The notes: generated from the letters alone by a model not told the origin. DNA of 8,826 bases from Candidatus Rokuibacteriota bacterium (GCA_016188625.1 JACPHL010000139.1:1-8826); one strand, 5' to 3'. Positions 201 to 8,826 are shown, counted from the stretch's first letter. Program-made: numbers and translations.

Positions 201-956
201 ATGGCTGAAATCCAGCGCGAGAGCCCCGTGCCGCTCTACCACCAGCTCCGCGAGATCCTGCGGAGCGAGATCCTCGAGGGGCGCTTCAAGCCCGGGGAGC
301 GTCTCCCCACGGAGTTCGAGCTGATCGCCCGATACCAGGTCAGCCGGACGACCGTCCGCCAGACCATCGGCGAGCTCCAGAAGGAAGGGCTCGTCACCGT
401 CCACCGGGGGAAGGGGACCTTCGTCCGCGACGGCAAGATCGAGCCCGAGCTCTCCGCCCTGACCGGGTTCGTGGAGGACATGCTCGCGCTGGGGATCGAG
501 GCCTCGGCCCGGGTCCTCTCCATCGAGGAGGTCCGCGCCGACAAGCTGGTGGCGGGCCAGCTCGGGCTCAACCCGAGCGATCGGGTCATCAAGATCGTGC
601 GGATCCGGCTGGCCAACCAGGAGCCCCTCTCCTACGACGTCTCCTTCCTCCCGTACGAGATCGGGGCCAAGCTCGCGCAGGAGGACCTCGTCGTCTACCC
701 CATCTTCACCCTGCTCGAGGACAAGTACGGCGTGCCGCTGGGCGAGGCCGATTACCGGATCGAGGCGAGCCTCGCCGATCGCAAGATCGCCGAGGCCCTG
801 GGGATCAGGAAGGGCGCCGCCATGCTTTCCATCGAGCGGACCACCTACAGCGCCAGCGGGGTCGCCGTGGACTTCGAGCAGCTATTCTACCGAGGGGATC
901 GAATCCGGTACACGATGCGGCTCAAGCGAAAGCGGCCCGGCTACTCCGCGACGTAA
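201..956 (+). CDS. GntR-family (HutC subfamily) transcriptional regulator with UTRA ligand-binding domain
   Basis: A 251-residue DNA-binding regulator of normal HutC-subfamily length. Residues 8-75 form the GntR winged helix: PLYHQLREILRSEIL, then PGERLPTEFELIARYQVSR and TTVRQTIGELQKEGL, ending in the wing HRGKGTFV at 68-75. Residues ~88-240 form the UTRA effector domain, beginning LTGFVEDM and containing the typical VIKIVRIRLANQEPLSYDVSFLP-like strand pair (split here at about 129-151), with a C-terminal FYRGDRIRYTMRLKR strand. The UTRA ligand is usually a small metabolite tied to the regulated pathway. Here it is unknown, but is probably a substrate or intermediate of the downstream genes. 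The ATG at 201 is supported by GGAG 6 nt upstream and by the canonical N-terminus. The gene lies 127 nt before the amidohydrolase on the same strand, and the operator-like site at 158-176 suggests autoregulation. The family is certain; the regulated pathway is inferred. Confidence 0.95.
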   Translation: MAEIQRESPVPLYHQLREILRSEILEGRFKPGERLPTEFELIARYQVSRTTVRQTIGELQKEGLVTVHRGKGTFVRDGKIEPELSALTGFVEDMLALGIEASARVLSIEEVRADKLVAGQLGLNPSDRVIKIVRIRLANQEPLSYDVSFLPYEIGAKLAQEDLVVYPIFTLLEDKYGVPLGEADYRIEASLADRKIAEALGIRKGAAMLSIERTTYSASGVAVDFEQLFYRGDRIRYTMRLKRKRPGYSAT

Positions 957-1083: not shown

Positions 1084-2274
1084 ATGGGAAGGCTGACGAG
1101 CTATCCGGTCGTTGACTGCGATGGGCACATCTTCGAGCCCATCGACCTCTGGGAGAAGTGGATCGAGGCGCCCTATAAGCTGGCCGCCCCGAAGGTCATG
1201 AAGGACTGGCGCGGGGATCAACGCGAGTACGTGGAGGGCAAGTTCTACCCGATCCCGTACGGCCCCGGGGCCGGCCTCCCCCACGGCTGGCAGGGGATCG
1301 CCAAGGTCCAGCAGGATGACGTCCTGGGCGGCGCGTACCCCCGCGGCTACGAGGCCGCCGAGGTGGCCGGCTTCGACCCGAAGGCCCGCCTCGAGGCGAT
1401 GGACAGCGAGGGGATCGACATCGGCGTCTGCTACCCCACCCGCGGGCTCTACAGCATCAACGTGGACGACCCGGGCCTGGCCGCCGCCGTCAGCCGCGCG
1501 TACAACAACTGGCTCTACGAGACGTGGGTGAAGACCGATCCCAACCGCCTCATCGGGGTGGCGATGGTGCCGTTCTGGCAGGACGTGGACGCGGCCATCA
1601 AGGAGATGGAGCGCTGCAAGCGGGAGTTCGGCTTCTACGGGACCTACATCCGGCCGAACCCCCGGCGGGGCCTGACCTTCGCGAGCCCCCACTTCCACCC
1701 CTTCTACGAGGCCGCCCAGGACCTCGGGATGCCCATCGGGCTCCACGAGGGGACCGGCTTCAGCGCGGCGGCCGGGACCGAGCGCTTCGACCGCTTCATC
1801 ATCAACCACGCCATCTCCCACCCCTTCGAGCAGATGCTGGCGATGATCGCCTTCATCCTCGGCGGGGTGCTCGAGAAGTTCCCGCGGCTCCGGGTGCTCT
1901 TCCTGGAGTCCGGGGCGAGCTGGGGGGCCTACTGGCTCTGGCGGATGGACGAGCACATCGAGAAGCGCCCGGACGAGTGCCAGGACCTCCGGATGTCCGC
2001 GACGGAGTACTTCCGCCGCCAGTGCGTCATCACCACGGAGACCGACGAGCACCCGGTGGCCGGGGCCGCCGAGTACATCGGGGAGGACAACATCGCCTGG
2101 TCCACCGACTTCTTCCACTGGGACGCCAAGTTCCCGGGGTCGGTGGAGTACGTGGTCAATCGGAAGGACCTGAGCGACACCTTCCGCGAGAAGCTCCTGG
2201 GTACCAACGCCATCCGGATCATGGGCCTCGAGAAGCAGGCCCAGGCCGTGATGAAGTCCAGCAAGAAGAGGTAG
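1084..2274 (+). CDS. amidohydrolase-2 family metal-dependent hydrolase/decarboxylase (COG2159-like)
   Basis: A 396-residue TIM-barrel enzyme of the amidohydrolase superfamily, in the group that includes ACMSD and gamma-resorcylate decarboxylase. The N-terminal VVDCDGHIFEP carries the metal-binding D13-x-H15 pair, a DxH form of the usual HxH. Further likely ligands or active-site residues are H221 (GLHEG), H246 (SHPFEQ) and D342 (WSTDFFHWD). E275 lies in LFLESGASWGAYW, a signature of these proteins. It has no signal peptide or membrane segment and is probably cytoplasmic. Family members decarboxylate or hydrate aromatic and unsaturated acids, or hydrolyse C-N or C-C bonds; the substrate here cannot be told. 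The start is fixed by a strong AAGGAGG at 1071-1077, 6 nt before the ATG. Its stop is followed after 25 nt by an 11-bp hairpin (2300-2326) before the flavoprotein gene. It may belong to the same operon, but need not be part of the redox complex. Confidence 0.9.
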   Translation: MGRLTSYPVVDCDGHIFEPIDLWEKWIEAPYKLAAPKVMKDWRGDQREYVEGKFYPIPYGPGAGLPHGWQGIAKVQQDDVLGGAYPRGYEAAEVAGFDPKARLEAMDSEGIDIGVCYPTRGLYSINVDDPGLAAAVSRAYNNWLYETWVKTDPNRLIGVAMVPFWQDVDAAIKEMERCKREFGFYGTYIRPNPRRGLTFASPHFHPFYEAAQDLGMPIGLHEGTGFSAAAGTERFDRFIINHAISHPFEQMLAMIAFILGGVLEKFPRLRVLFLESGASWGAYWLWRMDEHIEKRPDECQDLRMSATEYFRRQCVITTETDEHPVAGAAEYIGEDNIAWSTDFFHWDAKFPGSVEYVVNRKDLSDTFREKLLGTNAIRIMGLEKQAQAVMKSSKKR

Positions 2275-2299
2275 CCTCCGAACCGGTCATACCACGGCG

Positions 2300-2326
2300 G
2301 CGGGAGGGGGGCGATCCCCCTCCCGC
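2300..2326 (+). repeat. perfect 11-bp hairpin between amidohydrolase and flavoprotein genes
   Basis: GCGGGAGGGGG (2300-2310) pairs perfectly with CCCCCTCCCGC (2316-2326) across the 5-base loop GCGAT. It starts 26 nt after the amidohydrolase stop and ends 10 nt before the flavoprotein ATG at 2337. No T-tract follows, so a classical intrinsic terminator is not supported. The only SD-like bases of the next gene (GGGG, 2327-2330) abut the stem. It could be a U-less terminator, an mRNA processing or stability element, or a translational control structure. Confidence 0.7.
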
Positions 2327-2336
2327 GGGGACATCG

Positions 2337-3998
2337 ATGCCCGATCACACCGTAGTGGTGGTCGGCGGCGGGGTGGCGGGGATCCGAGCGGCCCTGGCCG
2401 CCAGGGCCCAGGGAGCCGACGTGGCCCTGGTCTCCAAGGTCCACCCGCTTCGAAGCCACTCCTGCACCAGCCAGGGCGGGCTCAACGCGGCCCTCGCCCC
2501 CGACGACTCGTGGGAGACCCATGCCCAGGACACCGTGGCGGGCGGGGACTTCCTGGGGGACCAGGACGCCGTCGAGACCCTGGCCCGCGAGGCCCCCGAC
2601 GCGGTCCTGGAGCTGGACCGCTGGGGGGCCCCCTTCAACCGCGACGAGCGCGGCCGCCTTGCGCTCCGCCGGCTCGCGGGCGCGAACCGCGCCAGGGCCT
2701 GCTACGCCGACGACCTGACCGGTCACGTCGTCCTCCAGGTCCTGCACGAGCAGCTCCTGGCCGCGCGCGTCCCCGCCTACGTCGAGTGGGTCGTCACTTC
2801 GCTCCTCATGGACGACGGGGCCTGCCGGGGCGTCGTCGCGCTGGAGCTGGCGACCGGGACCCTCCACGCCATCACGGCCCGGGCCGTGGTGCTCGCCACC
2901 GGCGGCTTCGGTCGGGTCTACGAGCCGACCGGGGCCTCCCTCGGCCTGACCGGGGACGGGCTCGCCCTCGCCTATCGCGCCGGGGCCGTCCTGATGGACA
3001 TGGAGATGGTGCAGTACCACCCCACGGCCCTGACGGGGACCGGGGCCCTCCTCACCGAGGCCCTCCTGGGCGAGGGGGCCCTCCTGGTCACGGGGGGCGG
3101 GGAGCGGGTGATGGCGGAGGCCGCGCCGCGGCTCGGCGAGCGGGCCCCGCGGGATCTCCTCAGCCGGAGCATCGCCTCCCGCCTCAAGGCCGGCGAGGCG
3201 GTCCTGCTCGACGCCCGGCCGATCGGCGGGGCGCGGCTCGGCCGGAGTTTCGGGGTGACCCGCCACCTGGTCAAGGCGGTGGCCGGTCTGGACCTCGCCA
3301 AGGAGCCGGTCCCGGTGGAGCCGGTCCCCCACCGGACGATGGGGGGGGTCCGGGTGGATCTCCACGGGGCGACGGGGCTCCCCGGGCTCTTCGCCGCGGG
3401 CGGGTGCGCGGCCACCGGGGTGCACGGGGCCAACCGCCTGGGCGGCAACTCCCTCCTCGAGGCGCTGGTGTTCGGGCGGCGTGCCGGCGAAGCGGCGGCC
3501 CGCGCCGCGGCCGCGGCCCCGACGGGGCAGGGCGCCTCGAGCCGGCTCGCCGATGAGGAGCGGGCCCTCGAGGCCCTCACCGCGCGAGGGGGTGGCCCGG
3601 ACGCGGCCGCCGCGATCCGCCAGGCGCTGACCCGGACCATGCGTGAGCAGGTCGGCCTCTTCCGGGAGGCCGCCGGGCTCGCCGAGGCGACCCGGACGAT
3701 CGTCGGGCTCCAGGAGCGACACCGGGGGCTCGGGGTGACGGCCTCCGGCCGGCGGTGGAACTCCGCCCTGGTGAGCCACCTCGAGCTCGGCCATCTGCTC
3801 GAGGTGGCCCGCGTGGTGGCCGCGGCGGCCCTGGCGCGCCAGGAGAGCCGGGGCGTCCACGCCCGGCGGGATTTCCCGGAGCGGGACGATACCGGCTGGC
3901 TCCGGCACACCCTGGCCTCCTTCACCCCCGACGGCCCCAAACTGGATGCCCAGCCGGTGGTCATCACCCGATGGCCGCCGGGGCGGAGGGCGTACTGA
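2337..3998 (+). CDS. fumarate reductase/succinate dehydrogenase-type flavoprotein subunit
   Basis: A 553-residue FAD protein of the SdhA/FrdA/TfrA family that interconverts fumarate and succinate, or a related pair. VVVVGGGVAGIRAAL at 6-20 is the dinucleotide-binding fold. SHS at 40-42 provides H41 at the position of the histidine that binds FAD covalently, followed by QGG. The active-site motifs are HPT at 228-230, RDLLSRS at 272-278 (catalytic-Arg region, R272), PHRTMGG at 331-337 and HGANRLGGNSLLEALVFGR at 363-381. ESRGVHARRDFPERDD at 503-518 is the typical C-terminal domain signature. The H41 context and the adjacent iron-sulfur subunit argue against L-aspartate oxidase. There is no Tat signal before the Rossmann motif, unlike periplasmic Mfr flavoproteins, so it should be cytoplasmic. 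The ATG at 2337 was chosen because the Rossmann strand begins right after it; the SD is weak (GGGG, 6 nt away). Its stop overlaps the next start (TGATG), showing translational coupling. Confidence 0.92.
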   Translation: MPDHTVVVVGGGVAGIRAALAARAQGADVALVSKVHPLRSHSCTSQGGLNAALAPDDSWETHAQDTVAGGDFLGDQDAVETLAREAPDAVLELDRWGAPFNRDERGRLALRRLAGANRARACYADDLTGHVVLQVLHEQLLAARVPAYVEWVVTSLLMDDGACRGVVALELATGTLHAITARAVVLATGGFGRVYEPTGASLGLTGDGLALAYRAGAVLMDMEMVQYHPTALTGTGALLTEALLGEGALLVTGGGERVMAEAAPRLGERAPRDLLSRSIASRLKAGEAVLLDARPIGGARLGRSFGVTRHLVKAVAGLDLAKEPVPVEPVPHRTMGGVRVDLHGATGLPGLFAAGGCAATGVHGANRLGGNSLLEALVFGRRAGEAAARAAAAAPTGQGASSRLADEERALEALTARGGGPDAAAAIRQALTRTMREQVGLFREAAGLAEATRTIVGLQERHRGLGVTASGRRWNSALVSHLELGHLLEVARVVAAAALARQESRGVHARRDFPERDDTGWLRHTLASFTPDGPKLDAQPVVITRWPPGRRAY

Positions 3999-4954
3999 TG
4001 GAGCTGATCTTCAAGGTCTACCGACACGATCCCACGGCGGGGACCAAGCCGGCCCTCGAGAGCTATCCCGTCAGCCTCCCCGACGGCGCGACCGTCCTGG
4101 ACGGCCTCCTCCAGATCCGGGACCGCCACGACGGCGGCCTGGCGTTCCGGGCCGCGTGCGGGCGCGGGTTCTGCGGGGAGTGCACGCTCCGGATCAACCG
4201 GAGCGGCAAGCTCGCCTGCATCACGCGGGTCGCCCAGGTGGCCAAGGACGGCGAGGTGACCGTCGAGCCGGTCCGGAACATCACGGTCCTGAAGGACCTC
4301 GTCTACGACGTGGACGAGCTCCTCTGGCAGAAGATCGCCTGGGTGGAGCCGTGGCTGCGCCCGGCGACCGCTCAGCCCGACGGCGGGTACGTGATCCCGG
4401 ACGCCGAGCTCGAGCCGATCAGGAAGGCGATGAGCTGCTACTACTGCGGCCTCTGCGACGAGGGGTGCAGCGTCATCCCCTTCGACCGCCGCTTCTCGGG
4501 CCCGGCCGCCCTCACCAAGGCCTTCCGGGTCGTCTTCGACCCCCGGGACGGGGCGGCGCGGGAGCGGCTGAAGCGGCTCGGGGAGCCGCGGGGGATGTGG
4601 GACTGCGTCCACTGCTACGAGGCCAACGAGCACTGCCCGCGGGGGATCGACCCCACCGACCGGATCTTCGACCTCAGGGACAAGGCGGTCGAGCTGGGAG
4701 TGAAGTCGGGGACGGCCAACCCCCAGGTGGCCCGGCACTACGACAGCTTCGCCGCGTCGGTCAGGCAGAGCGGCTGGCTCGACGAGGGGCGGCTGGCCCT
4801 GGAGACCTGGGGGCTCGGGCGGCTGGGGGAGCTCCTCCCCATGGCCTGGCGCGCCCTCCGACGGGGGAAGCTGCCGGTCCCCTACCTCCATCGCAAGCGC
4901 CCGGGGGCCGAGTGGATCCGACGGATCTTCGACAAGGTGGAGAAGCGATCATGA
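3998..4954 (+). CDS. FrdB/SdhB-type iron-sulfur subunit with HdrC/TfrB-like C-terminal extension
   Basis: A 318-residue electron-transfer subunit linking the flavoprotein to the HdrB-like partner. The N-terminal plant-type ferredoxin domain (about 1-105) has C54-x4-C59-x2-C62-x11-C74 for a [2Fe-2S] cluster, with the same spacing as E. coli SdhB. The bacterial-ferredoxin domain has C147-x2-C150-x2-C153-x3-C157 and then C203-x2-C206-x6-C213-P. In the second motif the third ferredoxin position is A209, and a cysteine sits at 206, the reverse of classical SdhB. Cluster 2 therefore has an unusual ligand set. Residues ~220-318 extend beyond normal SdhB length (about 240) and end in LRRGKLPVPYLHRKRPGAEW, like HdrC/TfrB-type proteins. 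The start codon overlaps the flavoprotein stop (TGATG), and its own stop overlaps the next start (ATGA). No signal peptide or membrane helix is visible. Family assignment is firm; the physiological electron acceptor is unknown. Confidence 0.92.
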   Translation: MELIFKVYRHDPTAGTKPALESYPVSLPDGATVLDGLLQIRDRHDGGLAFRAACGRGFCGECTLRINRSGKLACITRVAQVAKDGEVTVEPVRNITVLKDLVYDVDELLWQKIAWVEPWLRPATAQPDGGYVIPDAELEPIRKAMSCYYCGLCDEGCSVIPFDRRFSGPAALTKAFRVVFDPRDGAARERLKRLGEPRGMWDCVHCYEANEHCPRGIDPTDRIFDLRDKAVELGVKSGTANPQVARHYDSFAASVRQSGWLDEGRLALETWGLGRLGELLPMAWRALRRGKLPVPYLHRKRPGAEWIRRIFDKVEKRS

Positions 4955-5826
4955 GCTACGCCTTCTATCCAGGGTGCGTCTCGCGGGGGGGGTGCCCCGA
5001 GCTCTACCCCTCCGCCGTGAAGGTCGCCGGGCGGCTCGGGCTCGGCCTCGAGGAGCTCACCGACGTCGGCTGCAACGGCGCCGGGGTCCTGAGCCGCGCG
5101 GTCTCGGACCCGATCAACGCCCGGACCTTCGCCAAGGCGGAGGCGCGCGGGCTCACCCAGCTCATGACCATCTGCAGCACCTGCACCGGGGTCATGGGCG
5201 GGGCCAACCTCCGGCTGAAGGAGGCCCCGGCCTACCGGGAGCGGATCAACCGGGAGTTCCTGGCCGAGGAGCGGCTCGCCTACCAGGGGTCGGTGGACGT
5301 CAAGCATCTCCTCTGGCTCCTCGTCGAGGACTACGGGCTCGACCGGCTCCGCGCCGAGGTCCGGCGCCCGCTCAAGGGCCTTCGGGTCTCGCCGTTCTAC
5401 GGCTGCTACATCCGCCGGCCGGACGGGATCCTGGAGGGCAAGCCCGCGCGCAAGCGCTACCTCGAGATGGTCATCGAGGCGCTCGGGGCGGAGGTGACCG
5501 ACTTCGGGGGGAAGGGGAAGTGCTGCGGCTTCCCGGTCCTGACCGCCAACGAGCCGAACTCGATGGCGATGGTGGCGGCCCACACCGGCGAGGCGAAGAG
5601 CAAGGGGGCCGAGTGCATGGTGACGCCCTGCCCGCTCTGCCATCTCAACCTCGACGGGGGCCAGCCCAGGGCGGCGAAGATGAAGGGGACCGCGATCGAC
5701 CTGCCGATCCTCCACCTCCCCCAGCTTATCGGGCTGGCGCTCGGCTTCTCGGCGGAGGAGCTCCACCTCAAGCGCCACATCGTCCCCACGCGGCAGGTCG
5801 CCGAGAAGGTCTCGCTCCTCACCTGA
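4951..5826 (+). CDS. HdrB/SdhE-like CCG-domain protein (third subunit of the fumarate-reductase-type complex)
   Basis: A 291-residue protein with two CCG (DUF224) domains, as in heterodisulfide reductase HdrB, type E succinate:quinone reductases, MfrE, and the C-terminal half of thiol:fumarate reductase TfrB. The first motif has C9 in YPGC, C41-N42-G43 and C75-S-T-C78. The second has C152 in FYGC, C191-C192-G193 and C227-P-L-C230. The second is complete for a noncubane [4Fe-4S] cluster. The first has Asn where the second Cys of the CC pair should be. No transmembrane helix is visible. Within known complexes this subunit passes electrons to or from a quinone, disulfide or similar acceptor. The ATG overlaps the preceding stop by 4 nt (ATGA), so all three subunits are translationally coupled. 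The ordering A-B-E supports one stable complex. Quinone versus thiol/disulfide as partner cannot be decided from sequence. Confidence 0.92.
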   Translation: MSYAFYPGCVSRGGCPELYPSAVKVAGRLGLGLEELTDVGCNGAGVLSRAVSDPINARTFAKAEARGLTQLMTICSTCTGVMGGANLRLKEAPAYRERINREFLAEERLAYQGSVDVKHLLWLLVEDYGLDRLRAEVRRPLKGLRVSPFYGCYIRRPDGILEGKPARKRYLEMVIEALGAEVTDFGGKGKCCGFPVLTANEPNSMAMVAAHTGEAKSKGAECMVTPCPLCHLNLDGGQPRAAKMKGTAIDLPILHLPQLIGLALGFSAEELHLKRHIVPTRQVAEKVSLLT

Positions 5827-5878
5827 GGCCCTCGGCCGCTCGGCGACGAGCTGAATGAGCGCTGGTCCCCCGAGGGCC
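5827..5878 (+). repeat. 9-bp inverted repeat enclosing the start of the alpha/beta hydrolase gene
   Basis: GGCCCTCGG (5827-5835), directly after the stop of the HdrB-like gene, is perfectly complementary to CCGAGGGCC (5870-5878), inside codons 6-8 of the next gene. The 34-nt loop holds the weak ribosome binding region and the ATG at 5855. Folding could affect translation of the hydrolase. In such GC-rich DNA a 9-bp match can arise by chance, so support is moderate. Confidence 0.4.
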
Positions 5879-6775
5879 GCGCCCGTCGCCCTCGACGGGC
5901 TCACGCATCGATCCGTCGAGGTGGAGGGCGCCCGATGGCACTGCGTTCGGGCCGGGGCCGGACCGCCGGTGGTGATGCTGCACGGCTGGCCCGAGACCTG
6001 GTACTGCTGGCGACACCAGATCCCGGCCGTGGCGGCGGCTCGCACGGTGTACGCCCCGGACCTTTTGGGCTGGGGGGAATCGGACAAGCCTGAGGGGGAC
6101 TACTCGGTCCCGGCCATGGTGGGGAGGCTGAAGGGGTTGCTCGACGCCCTGGGGATCGGGCGGACGGCCCTGGTCGGTCACGACTGGGGCGGGATCCTCT
6201 CCTACCCGTTCGCCCTCCGGTACCCGGAGATGGTGGACCGCCTGTTCATCATCAACGCCGCCTTCCACCGGCGGCCCCCGCTCGCCCCGCTCCACCGCTA
6301 CTACTTTCACCTCCCCCTGCTCCCCGAGCTCCATGCCCGCCTGTCGGGGGATTCGCTGATCCGTGGCATCATCCGGTGGTGGGCCGCGAACCAGGCGGCC
6401 TTCCCGCCCGAGGTGATCGCCGTGTACCAGGAGGCCTTTCGCCGCCCCGGGGCCCACGCCGCCACCCTCCGCTACTACCGGGCCTCCAGCGTGAGCGGGA
6501 TGTGGCGGCGCCGGCGGTACCGGGGGCCGCAGATCGCCGCGCCGCTGCTGGCGGTGTGGGGGGAGCGGGATCCCGTGCTCCCCGTCAGGGCGGCCGAGCA
6601 GCTGAAGGAGGACCTCCCCGCCACCCGGGTGGTGCGGGTCCCCGGGGCCGGTCACTTCCCCCATGAGGAGCAGCCCGAGCAGGTGACCCGTCTGCTGCTG
6701 GCCTTCCTCGACGGCCGCCTCCCCCCCGACGCGGGCGGGGAGGAAGGGGCGCCGGGGGGTCCCGCAGCCCACTAA
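5855..6775 (+). CDS. alpha/beta hydrolase, epoxide hydrolase/dehalogenase-like
   Basis: A 306-residue alpha/beta-hydrolase-fold enzyme of normal length for soluble epoxide hydrolases. HGWPETWYCWRHQIP at 43-57 is the oxyanion-hole motif. GHDWGG at 108-113 places an aspartate nucleophile, D110, as in epoxide hydrolases and haloalkane or haloacetate dehalogenases rather than serine esterases. D239 (WGERDP) is the likely acid and H267 (GAGHFPHEEQP) the base. Tyr pairs Y149-Y150 and Y207-Y208 lie in the cap region and could supply the epoxide-activating tyrosines. The arginines following the nucleophile in fluoroacetate dehalogenase are absent, favouring epoxide hydrolase or another C-O hydrolysis. 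The tail after ~288 (PPDAGGEEGAPGG) is low-complexity. It starts 28 nt after the HdrB-like gene with only a weak GACGAG upstream, so expression may depend on coupling. Fold and nucleophile class are confident; the substrate is unknown. Confidence 0.9.
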   Translation: MSAGPPRAAPVALDGLTHRSVEVEGARWHCVRAGAGPPVVMLHGWPETWYCWRHQIPAVAAARTVYAPDLLGWGESDKPEGDYSVPAMVGRLKGLLDALGIGRTALVGHDWGGILSYPFALRYPEMVDRLFIINAAFHRRPPLAPLHRYYFHLPLLPELHARLSGDSLIRGIIRWWAANQAAFPPEVIAVYQEAFRRPGAHAATLRYYRASSVSGMWRRRRYRGPQIAAPLLAVWGERDPVLPVRAAEQLKEDLPATRVVRVPGAGHFPHEEQPEQVTRLLLAFLDGRLPPDAGGEEGAPGGPAAH

Positions 6776-6778
6776 CCC

Positions 6779-6804
6779 GCCCTCCCGCCGTCAACGGGGA
6801 GGGC
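6779..6804 (+). repeat. 8-bp hairpin between hydrolase and PanB-like gene
   Basis: GCCCTCCC (6779-6786) pairs perfectly with GGGAGGGC (6797-6804) around a 10-base loop GCCGTCAACG. It lies 3 nt after the hydrolase stop and just before the strong AGGAGG SD (6808-6813) of the next gene. No T-tract follows. Its right arm shares the 11-mer CGGGGAGGGCC (6795-6805) with the hairpin at 7703-7738, and its reverse complement shares CGGCGGGAGGG with the 2300-2326 region. Confidence 0.55.
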
Positions 6805-6821
6805 CAGAGGAGGAGAGGACG

Positions 6822-7691
6822 ATGGCCGAGGCTCCAGCACGAAAAAAGATCACGATCCCCATGCTCATGGAGAAGAAGCGGAAGAAAGAGCCGATCACCA
6901 TGCTGGCGGTCTACGATTACCCGACGTCCATCCTGGCCGACCGCGTGGGGATCGAGATCCTCTGCACCAGCGACACCGGCGGGATGATCCTCTTCGGGCA
7001 CGAGACCACCGAGACCGTGACCTTCGAGGAGGTTCTCTTCATGACCCAGGGGATGGCCCGGGGCGCCAAGTACGGCCTCCGGATGACGGACATGCCGTAC
7101 ATGAGCTACCACTTCTCCGAGGAGCAGGCGATCCGGAACGCCGCGCGGTTCGTCGCCGAGGGGCGGGCCGAGGTGATGAAGTGCGAGGGGAACAAGCACC
7201 ACGCCAAGTTCATCGGGGCCATCGTCCGGGCCGGCATCCCGGTCATGGGGCACATCGGGATCACCCCCATGCGGGTGGCCCAGCTCGGCGGGTTCGCCGC
7301 CCAGGGGAAGACCGCGGAGCGGGCGCAGGAGCTGGTGGAGGACGCCCTGGCCATGGTGGAGGCCGGCTGCTTCTCGATCCTCTGCGAGGTCACCACCTCC
7401 GAGGTCGCTGAGTACCTCGCCGAGACCCTGCCCGTCCCGGTCATCAGCCTCGGGGCGGGGAACAAGGCCGACGGCGTCCACATCATCACCTCCGACCTCT
7501 TCCGGATGTACGACCGCCACACCCCGCGTCACTCCAAGGTGTACCTGGAGATGTTCCCGATCATCCAGAAGGTGTTCGAAGAGTACCGGGACGACATCCT
7601 CAACCGTCGCTACCCGGGCCCCGAGCACACCGTCTTCATGAAGGAGGAGGAGCTGAAGCGCTTCCGCGACGTGGTCGGCTGGCACAAGTAG
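6822..7691 (+). CDS. divergent PanB-family (3-methyl-2-oxobutanoate hydroxymethyltransferase-like) enzyme
   Basis: A 289-residue TIM-barrel protein of the PanB branch of the PEP mutase/isocitrate lyase superfamily. True PanB adds a hydroxymethyl group from 5,10-methylene-tetrahydrofolate to 2-oxoisovalerate. Recognisable elements are ITMLAVYDYPT (25-35), SDTGGM (50-55, metal ligand D51), TDMPYMSY (89-96, D90), VMKCEG (118-123, K120 and E122), MGHIGITP (142-149), E189 at the general-base position and SLGAGNKADG (209-218). The catalytic skeleton is kept, but substrate-side motifs differ from canonical PanB: SDTGGM for GDSLGM, E-V-T-T for E-C-V-P. It is longer than E. coli PanB (264), mostly through a basic N-terminus and a C-terminal tail. 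No panC or panD is nearby, and the neighbours are catabolic and redox genes, so pantothenate synthesis is doubtful. A strong AGGAGG (6808-6813) 8 nt upstream fixes the start. It may be a paralog acting on another 2-oxo acid, possibly in the C1-releasing direction. Confidence 0.82.
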   Translation: MAEAPARKKITIPMLMEKKRKKEPITMLAVYDYPTSILADRVGIEILCTSDTGGMILFGHETTETVTFEEVLFMTQGMARGAKYGLRMTDMPYMSYHFSEEQAIRNAARFVAEGRAEVMKCEGNKHHAKFIGAIVRAGIPVMGHIGITPMRVAQLGGFAAQGKTAERAQELVEDALAMVEAGCFSILCEVTTSEVAEYLAETLPVPVISLGAGNKADGVHIITSDLFRMYDRHTPRHSKVYLEMFPIIQKVFEEYRDDILNRRYPGPEHTVFMKEEELKRFRDVVGWHK

Positions 7692-7764: not shown

Positions 7765-8826
7765 ATGGAGACCCACGATCCCGAGCGCGTGAGGGGCCGG
7801 ATCGCCGCCTTCCCCCGCGAGCGGACCTGGCTCCTGCCCGCCCTCGAGGCGGTTCAGGCCTCGGAGGGGTGGCTCAGCCTCGAGAGCCTCGAGGCGGTGG
7901 GCGAGCACCTCCGGGTCCCGAAGAGCGAGGTCTACGGCGTCGCGACCCACTACCCCGAGTTCCGCCTCGCCCGGCCCGGCGCGCACCTGATCCGCGTCTG
8001 CACCGGCGTGAGCTGCCGGCTCACCGGCTCGCTGGAGTGCCTCGGGCGCCTCCAGGCGCGCTTCGGGATCGAGGCCGGCCAGACGACGGCGGACGGCCAG
8101 GTGACGCTGGAGGAGGCCGACTGCTTCTTCGTCTGCTCGGCCGCCCCGCTGGTGGAGGTGGACGGCGCCTGCCACGGCCGGGTGAACCCCGCCGAGGCCG
8201 AGCATGTCCCGGTCTGGTACCGCTTCTCCCGGGCGCCGCACGCGGCCGGGGTCGCGCGCCCCTCGGCCCCGCCCGAGCTGCCGGGGGAGAGCGCCCGGGC
8301 CCGCCTCGCCCACCTCGTCGAGGCGGCCCGGCGTCGCGCCCGCGAGCGCCCGCCGATCCGCCTGCTCGTCCAGGCCGGCTCCTGCGGGGCGGCCGTGGGC
8401 GCCGAGGAGGTGGTCAAGGCGCTCCGGACGCTGGCGGCGATGCGGGGGCTCGAGGCCGAGGTCCTCGAGGGCGCCTGCAACGGGATCTGCTACGGCCAGG
8501 TCGCCGTCGAGGTCCGCCGGGAGGGGTGGCCCAGGCTGACCGTGACGAACGTGACGAAGGATCGCGTCCCGGACCTCCTCCACGCCCTCTTCTCGACCGA
8601 GGCGCCGGTGAGCGGGTTCGACGGGGTGGTCTGGGCCGATGCGTCGTGGCGGGGCTTCCCGCCGGCCCGCGAGCACCCCTTCCTCCGGGGCCAGCACCGC
8701 GTGCTCCGCGCGCAGCGCCTCGCGCACCTCGCCGTCCCCGTCCCCGGCGACGCACGCGACCGCCCCGGCCAGCGAGAGCTGCGCGGCGAGCTCCTCCGGA
8801 GTGAGCAGGTGGTTCAGGGGCGCGGC
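7765..8826 (+). CDS. NuoE-NuoF fusion (NADH-oxidising diaphorase subunit, 3' incomplete and probably interrupted near 8706)
   Basis: The frame is open from ATG 7765 to the window end (354 codons). Residues 1-155 are a complete NuoE/HoxE/FdsG-like thioredoxin-fold [2Fe-2S] protein: EVYGVATHYPEFRL at 55-68, C79-x4-C84 and C120-x3-C124. A linker rich in Ala, Arg and Pro (~156-196) leads to the NuoF/HoxF/FdsB N-terminal thioredoxin-like domain: GSCGAAVGAEE at 206-215 (C207), C238-x3-C242, and TVTNVTKDRVPDLL at 259-272. HPFLRGQHRV (304-313) matches the lead-in to the NuoF flavin domain, where LRNCG-like sequence should follow. Instead the frame becomes unrelated Arg/Pro-rich sequence, so coding similarity ends near 8706. 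In Nuo, soluble hydrogenases and NAD-dependent formate dehydrogenases this unit moves electrons between NADH and an iron-sulfur chain. The SD (GGAGAGAG, 7748-7755) is distant from the ATG; GTG 7789 is an alternative start. Confidence 0.8.
   Translation, partial: METHDPERVRGRIAAFPRERTWLLPALEAVQASEGWLSLESLEAVGEHLRVPKSEVYGVATHYPEFRLARPGAHLIRVCTGVSCRLTGSLECLGRLQARFGIEAGQTTADGQVTLEEADCFFVCSAAPLVEVDGACHGRVNPAEAEHVPVWYRFSRAPHAAGVARPSAPPELPGESARARLAHLVEAARRRARERPPIRLLVQAGSCGAAVGAEEVVKALRTLAAMRGLEAEVLEGACNGICYGQVAVEVRREGWPRLTVTNVTKDRVPDLLHALFSTEAPVSGFDGVVWADASWRGFPPAREHPFLRGQHRVLRAQRLAHLAVPVPGDARDRPGQRELRGELLRSEQVVQGRG
8707..8826 (-). pseudogene. possible fragment of an acyl-CoA synthetase (ANL family), minus strand, N-terminal part
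   Basis: Read on the minus strand from the right edge, the frame begins AAPLNHLLTPEELAAQL and continues with a SLAGAVACVAGDG stretch. This closely resembles the region of AMP-forming acyl-CoA synthetases with PLN-x-LT-x-EEL and an AGA-x-x-V strand. Codon third positions are nearly all G or C. The same bases in the plus NuoF frame give unfamiliar Arg/Pro-rich sequence. Similarity fades around 8707-8727, where NuoF similarity on the other strand begins. The gene would thus be truncated after an early segment, and its start is outside the window. The identification rests on about 35 residues and is tentative. Confidence 0.4.

Follow-up and report, generated by a model that had tools for sequence, protein, structure and literature searches.

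A type E-like complex II variant outside the tricarboxylic acid cycle, with a remodeled third iron-sulfur site, in Candidatus Rokuibacteriota

The triad and its subunits

The window analyzed here, 8,826 bp in length, is an entire contig (G000:C265) of a 2.6-Mb, 84%-complete metagenome-assembled genome of a Candidatus Rokuibacteriota bacterium and contains eight genes on one strand, in the order given in Table 1. Three of them, A, B, and E, form an FrdA-FrdB-HdrB/SdhE triad without a transmembrane helix or signal peptide. The description that fits the locus best is that of a type E complex II variant that has diversified in substrate, is independent of the tricarboxylic acid (TCA) cycle, and has a remodeled third iron-sulfur site. 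The original prediction, made from the sequence of the window, had proposed three translationally coupled genes at positions 2337 to 5826 with the flavin histidine His41, an HdrC-like extension, and two CCG stretches, and coordinates, profiles, and alignment confirm this arrangement. A and B share one base where stop and start codon meet (TGATG), and B and E share four (ATGA). An alternative in-frame ATG at position 3971 would extend B to 327 amino acids and the overlap with A to 28 bases; the B genes of the relatives L045, L046, and L069 start similarly far upstream.

Flavoprotein A matches PF00890 (6.5e-91) and PF02910 (9.3e-37) over its full length and scores 598.9 bits with TIGR01812, above the cut-off of 567.3. 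Its N-terminus, MPDHTVVVVGGGVAG, opens straight into the Gly motif that binds flavin adenine dinucleotide (FAD) and therefore lacks a twin-arginine translocation (Tat) signal. Subunit B matches Fer2_3 (PF13085) and the 4Fe-4S dicluster domain (PF13183), and PRK12577 covers its residues 1 to 317. The description of E as a two-CCG-domain protein holds for the two PF02754 (CCG) stretches but not for the first motif, which reads C-N-G; the middle position is occupied by T, N, or S in the majority of type E relatives and by Cys in five. Residues C152, C191, C192, C227, and C230 are invariant across 81 E proteins, and the NF042965 score of E is 181.6 bits, below the cut-off of 500. No stretch of 19 residues in A, B, or E has a mean hydropathy above 1.6, compared with 2.14 for the anchor of the other succinate dehydrogenase (Sdh) of the genome.

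An FrdA/SdhA and an FrdB/SdhB protein combined with a CCG subunit that has an intact C-terminal CCG motif, all without an anchor, correspond to type E complex II, which has been described in similar terms as split, anchor-less, and equipped with an HdrC-like tail (PMC2680327). The prediction of a cytoplasmic, type E-like enzyme with neither Tat signal nor transmembrane anchor agrees with N-terminus, hydropathy, and profiles. The same anatomy had also been regarded as distinctive, but it is standard in the type E triads of the sampled loci. The 8-methylmenaquinol:fumarate reductase MfrABE of Wolinella and Campylobacter likewise has a split sdhABE operon that encodes no membrane helix (PMC2680327). 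In contrast to Mfr, A of the window has no Tat signal and possesses the FAD histidine; Mfr models remain below the cut-off for A, B, and E (NF042982 on A, 401 of 1100 bits). As of a 2023 review, no structure of a class E complex II had been reported (PMC10238741).

Table 1. Features of the window and, in the last three rows, NuoE-NuoF-like proteins of sister loci
Feature	Position	Strand	Evidence
GntR/UTRA regulator	201..956	+	PF00392, PF07702
Amidohydrolase-2 family protein, adjoins A on the 5' side	1084..2274	+	PF04909 5.8e-32
A, FrdA/SdhA-like flavoprotein, 553 aa	2337..3998	+	PF00890, PF02910, TIGR01812, tree
Codon of His41 (A), covalent-FAD histidine	2457..2459	+	Alignment to solved Sdh/Frd chains and relatives
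Codon of Arg367 (A), substrate-carboxylate arginine	3435..3437	+	Alignment to solved Sdh/Frd chains and relatives
B, FrdB-like iron-sulfur subunit with HdrC-like C-terminal extension, 318 aa	3998..4954	+	PF13085, PF13183, PRK12577
Codon of Ala209 (B), cluster Cys in type E and canonical complex II	4622..4624	+	B comparison
E, two-CCG-domain SdhE/HdrB-like subunit, 291 aa	4951..5826	+	PF02754 (two)
Degenerate N-terminal CCG motif C41-N42-G43 (E)	5071..5079	+	Sequence, relatives
Intact C-terminal CCG motif C191-C192-G193 (E)	5521..5529	+	Sequence, alignment
Alpha/beta hydrolase, 28 bp 3' of E	5855..6775	+	PF00561
Ketopantoate hydroxymethyltransferase-like protein	6822..7691	+	PF02548 4.1e-82
NuoE-like [2Fe-2S] protein, cut by contig end	7765..8826	+	PF01257 2.2e-36
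Sister NuoE-NuoF-like protein, L046	4275-6146		
Sister NuoE-NuoF-like protein, L045	886-2708		
Sister NuoE-NuoF-like protein, L065	1874-3085		

A separate clade with an alanine in subunit B

Peptide patterns of the E subunits from four relatives retrieved 80 loci, and nearly all intact ones carry the same A-B-E triad; references from Sulfolobus, Wolinella, and methanogens were compared via hidden Markov model scores only. Trees of A, B, and E each place the window in one clade (SH-aLRT, 99 to 100), designated the derived clade in the following, whose members belong to Rokubacteria, Binatota, Tectomicrobia, "Deltaproteobacteria," and some SAR202. In the careful A tree, the window and two Rokubacteria (97/97) are nested within a derived clade of 20 rows (100/100), which is separate from the anchored Sdh of Rokubacteria and from class F, and a larger quick tree agrees. 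The B tree (100) and the E tree (99) show the same split from the TCA-linked type E, beside or within which the derived clade branches in the A trees. The respiratory Sdh clade of its relatives thus does not include the flavoprotein (100/100), which groups with neither the Rokubacterial nor the class F SdhA, and the genes are not part of a TCA operon with an anchor. The derived clade is not described in the open-access literature searched.

The TCA-linked type E Sdh of Chloroflexota and others has the same A-B-E order, subunit sizes, HdrC-like B extension, and E motifs (N-terminal C-x-G, C-terminal CCG), and it also lacks a membrane helix; in contrast, the derived clade is characterized by Ala209 of B, the absence of TCA neighbors, and a variable active site in A. 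In type E B subunits, a Cys pattern for a second [4Fe-4S] cluster replaces that for the [3Fe-4S] cluster (PMC2680327). The motif is C-x5-C-x3-CP in canonical complex II and C-x2-C-x2-C-x3-CP in the other type E proteins, and the middle Cys common to both is an alanine in the derived clade (C-x-H-C-x-E-A-x2-[HK]-C). Position 209 is Ala in all 36 derived-clade B subunits and Cys in canonical B and in the 46 other type E proteins, all of which have four Cys at this site. Since B of the window (C203-C206-A209-C213) lacks the type E Cys pattern, a defining feature of the class, the locus is not counted here among the ordinary type E members, although the complex would function like one. Two residues next to the second cluster likewise differ consistently in the derived clade. 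Ala209 might serve as a simple sequence marker against the mislabeling of such genes as succinate dehydrogenase.

Genomic context and a second succinate dehydrogenase

TCA genes occur nearby in none of 32 derived loci versus 30 of 46 other type E loci (Fisher P = 3e-10; counts and P value are uncorrected for relatedness and unequal locus length). The triads of Chloroflexota and of the loci L048 and L058 adjoin genes for fumarase, malate or isocitrate dehydrogenase, or sucCD and therefore represent the Sdh of the TCA cycle in these bacteria. The genome of the window carries a full TCA cluster on another contig, C280 (acn-idh-mdh-fumA-fumB-anchor-sdhA-sdhB-sucC-sucD), whose SdhA scores 1068.6 bits with PRK07803 (cut-off, 819) and whose anchor has several hydrophobic helices. 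This Sdh looks like class F (Mycobacterium smegmatis Sdh1 type) in the scheme of PMC10238741. The earlier proposal that the triad is not the Sdh of the TCA cycle is hence supported by a second, anchored enzyme, and the window is not the only sdh locus of the genome. No PF01127 anchor was detected anywhere in the genome, which is weak proof because PF01127 likewise fails to detect the class F anchor of C280, recognized here by gene order and hydropathy.

Six of six closed chromosomes checked that contain a derived triad encode another, higher-scoring SdhA, and a close E is present in only 4 of 95 genomes from the class of the window, which indicates that the module is accessory. Two complex II-like enzymes are adjacent in the Binatia loci L086, L087, L090, L091, and L093, where a class F-type anchor-sdhA-sdhB operon directly follows the derived triad on its 3' side.

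Divergence of the flavoprotein

Every pairwise comparison among 31 derived triads shows lower conservation of A than of E (mean identity, 49.7% versus 68.9%), whereas both subunits are equally conserved in 36 respiratory type E triads (64.6% versus 65.4%); at matched E identity, A identity amounts to 45% in derived and 64% in respiratory triads. All 36 respiratory triads have canonical residues at six catalytic positions of A, as opposed to only 5 of 31 derived ones, the window among them. The FAD-linking His was replaced by Asn once, in a subclade of 14 loci. Arg367, which we take to occupy the position of the carboxylate-binding Arg560 of urocanate reductase (PMC7921117) on the basis of motif position, was lost at least three times (to Gly, Ala, Cys, or Leu), while the proton-shuttle Arg272 was kept. 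UrdA needs this carboxylate arginine, which several derived relatives have lost.

Covalent FAD is required for succinate oxidation (PMC2680327), and the Asn-bearing members are therefore unlikely to be succinate dehydrogenases. A precedent for an Frd fold that switches its substrate via few active-site residues is provided by urocanate reductase and other Frd-like reductases (PMC7921117), although those enzymes use domains bearing flavin mononucleotide (FMN) or heme and have no B-E partner.

Candidate electron partners

NADH, delivered via a nearby NuoE/F protein, had been proposed as one electron partner. A soluble reductase of an enoyl or other unsaturated acid, fed from NADH through a NuoE-F-like protein or from an electron-transfer flavoprotein, would fit the NuoE-F-like gene that lies directly 3' of E in three Rokubacteria loci (L065, L066, and L067) and near E in the window, as well as the fused EtfBA gene (about 615 amino acids) directly 5' of A in L075 (positions 5517 to 7370), L076, and L077, where A lacks the FAD histidine. 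In the window, only the NuoE part of the predicted protein is seen before the contig ends, without a NuoF part. Aligned to the NuoF of the genome itself, the sister NuoF-like domains (L045, L046, and L065) are devoid of the Gly-rich FMN/NADH loop, and L045 and L046, the two proteins read to their end, have no C-terminal 4Fe-4S domain either. Because of these losses NADH is a doubtful partner, although the NuoE cysteines are intact, and as partners moreover vary between subclades, we consider a reductase of this kind improbable.

The similarity of the window protein to the sister NuoE-F proteins ends at about position 8690, before the contig end, and no continuation was found in the listed frames for positions 8690 to 8826; this could reflect a frameshift, a chimeric end, or genuine divergence.

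A thiol/disulfide partner had also been suggested, and comparison with PDB chains shows homology of E to HdrB (E value 1.6e-37). In a bacterial thiol:fumarate reductase, E would act on a thiol or disulfide like HdrB or TfrB, but E has CNG in place of the first CCG motif, like the majority of sampled type E SdhE proteins and unlike the thiol-active HdrB with two complete motifs, which makes such a partner unlikely. The HdrB model TIGR03288 gives 157.1 bits for E (cut-off, 345.15). The methanogen enzyme TfrAB has homologous flavoprotein and FeS/CCG parts, but these FeS and CCG parts are fused in TfrB, whereas two distinct, overlapping genes encode B and E here, and the TfrA (404.9 of 718 bits) and TfrB (110 of 385 bits) models are both below the cut-off. 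Thiol:fumarate reduction is accordingly the most remote of the explanations considered. Since E is conserved across the boundary between respiratory and derived triads, suggesting that the acceptor side has stayed the same, a quinone would be the most economical acceptor.

Proposed function

Overall, the combination of a separate clade, the Cys-to-Ala exchange in every member, missing TCA neighbors, and a coexisting Sdh suggests that A-B-E is a substrate-switched catabolic paralogue of the type E (HdrB-anchored) succinate dehydrogenase that operates outside the TCA cycle, a reading to which we assign slightly better than even odds (a probability of roughly 0.55) and in which the enzyme probably acts on a different acid in catabolism. 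It would be a flavin dehydrogenase/reductase of the cytoplasm, attached to the membrane peripherally at most, that serves a catabolic gene cluster. A would interconvert C-C and C=C bonds beside the carboxyl group of some organic acid. We infer a path and direction in which electrons would pass from FAD through the three centers of B, the last remodeled by the Cys-to-Ala exchange, to the single intact, non-cubane-type CCG center of E. Like other type E enzymes, the complex would then most likely hand them on to quinone.

Several observations weigh against this interpretation. The TCA-neighbor statistic is uncorrected, as stated above; the sequence of E reveals no quinone site; and no gene family beyond A-B-E recurs consistently among the derived loci, so that the unconserved neighborhood indicates no substrate. 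Above all, A of the window has retained every catalytic residue checked (His41, His228, Thr240, Glu241, Arg272, His332, and Arg367), and succinate or fumarate may thus still be the substrate of this particular enzyme. The earlier idea of a substrate other than fumarate consequently finds support for the clade but not in the active site of the window protein. Together with the TIGR01812 score above the cut-off, these residues would fit an accessory succinate dehydrogenase/fumarate reductase, used for example in electron disposal or in oxidizing succinate from a local catabolic pathway, with the relatives alone having switched substrate. The closest relatives, from the same clade and partly with the same neighbors, have however lost Arg367, the window shares Ala209 of B with them, and a class F Sdh is already present in the genome; we therefore regard an accessory Sdh/Frd as rather unlikely, though less so than an NADH-fed reductase.

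The classification of complex II enzymes follows their membrane parts, and they are regarded as succinate/fumarate machines. Tentatively, and with somewhat less confidence than for the catabolic paralogue itself, the derived clade may constitute an unrecognized complex II-like class in uncultured bacteria from soil, groundwater, and the sea, with a conserved B-E module, a remodeled third center (Cys to Ala beside an invariant His), and flavoproteins diversified beyond succinate and fumarate, some of them without covalent FAD or the carboxylate Arg. If this is true, a respiratory electron-delivery module has been reused for other catabolic oxidations in these bacteria.

Neighboring genes and a further flavoprotein

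The sole promoter-like site in the window is located at positions 137 to 166, and the GntR/UTRA regulator may control the cluster. An amidohydrolase gene lies directly 5' of A in the window, in L066 (Rokubacteria), and in L071, and fumarase/aspartase-like genes precede A in L070, L072, and L073. Amidohydrolases, short-chain dehydrogenases/reductases, luciferase-like monooxygenases, and alpha/beta hydrolases recur in four sublineages each; naming the substrate from neighboring genes was attempted and rejected, as these families are too general.

A third FrdA-like flavoprotein of the genome (L014; G000:C68, positions 1613 to 3346, complement) is TfrA-like (575 of 718 bits), lacks the FAD histidine, and has no adjoining B gene. 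Its neighbors are a two-part thiamine diphosphate (ThDP) enzyme, a fumarase-like alpha/beta pair, and a TRAP-TAXI-type transporter.

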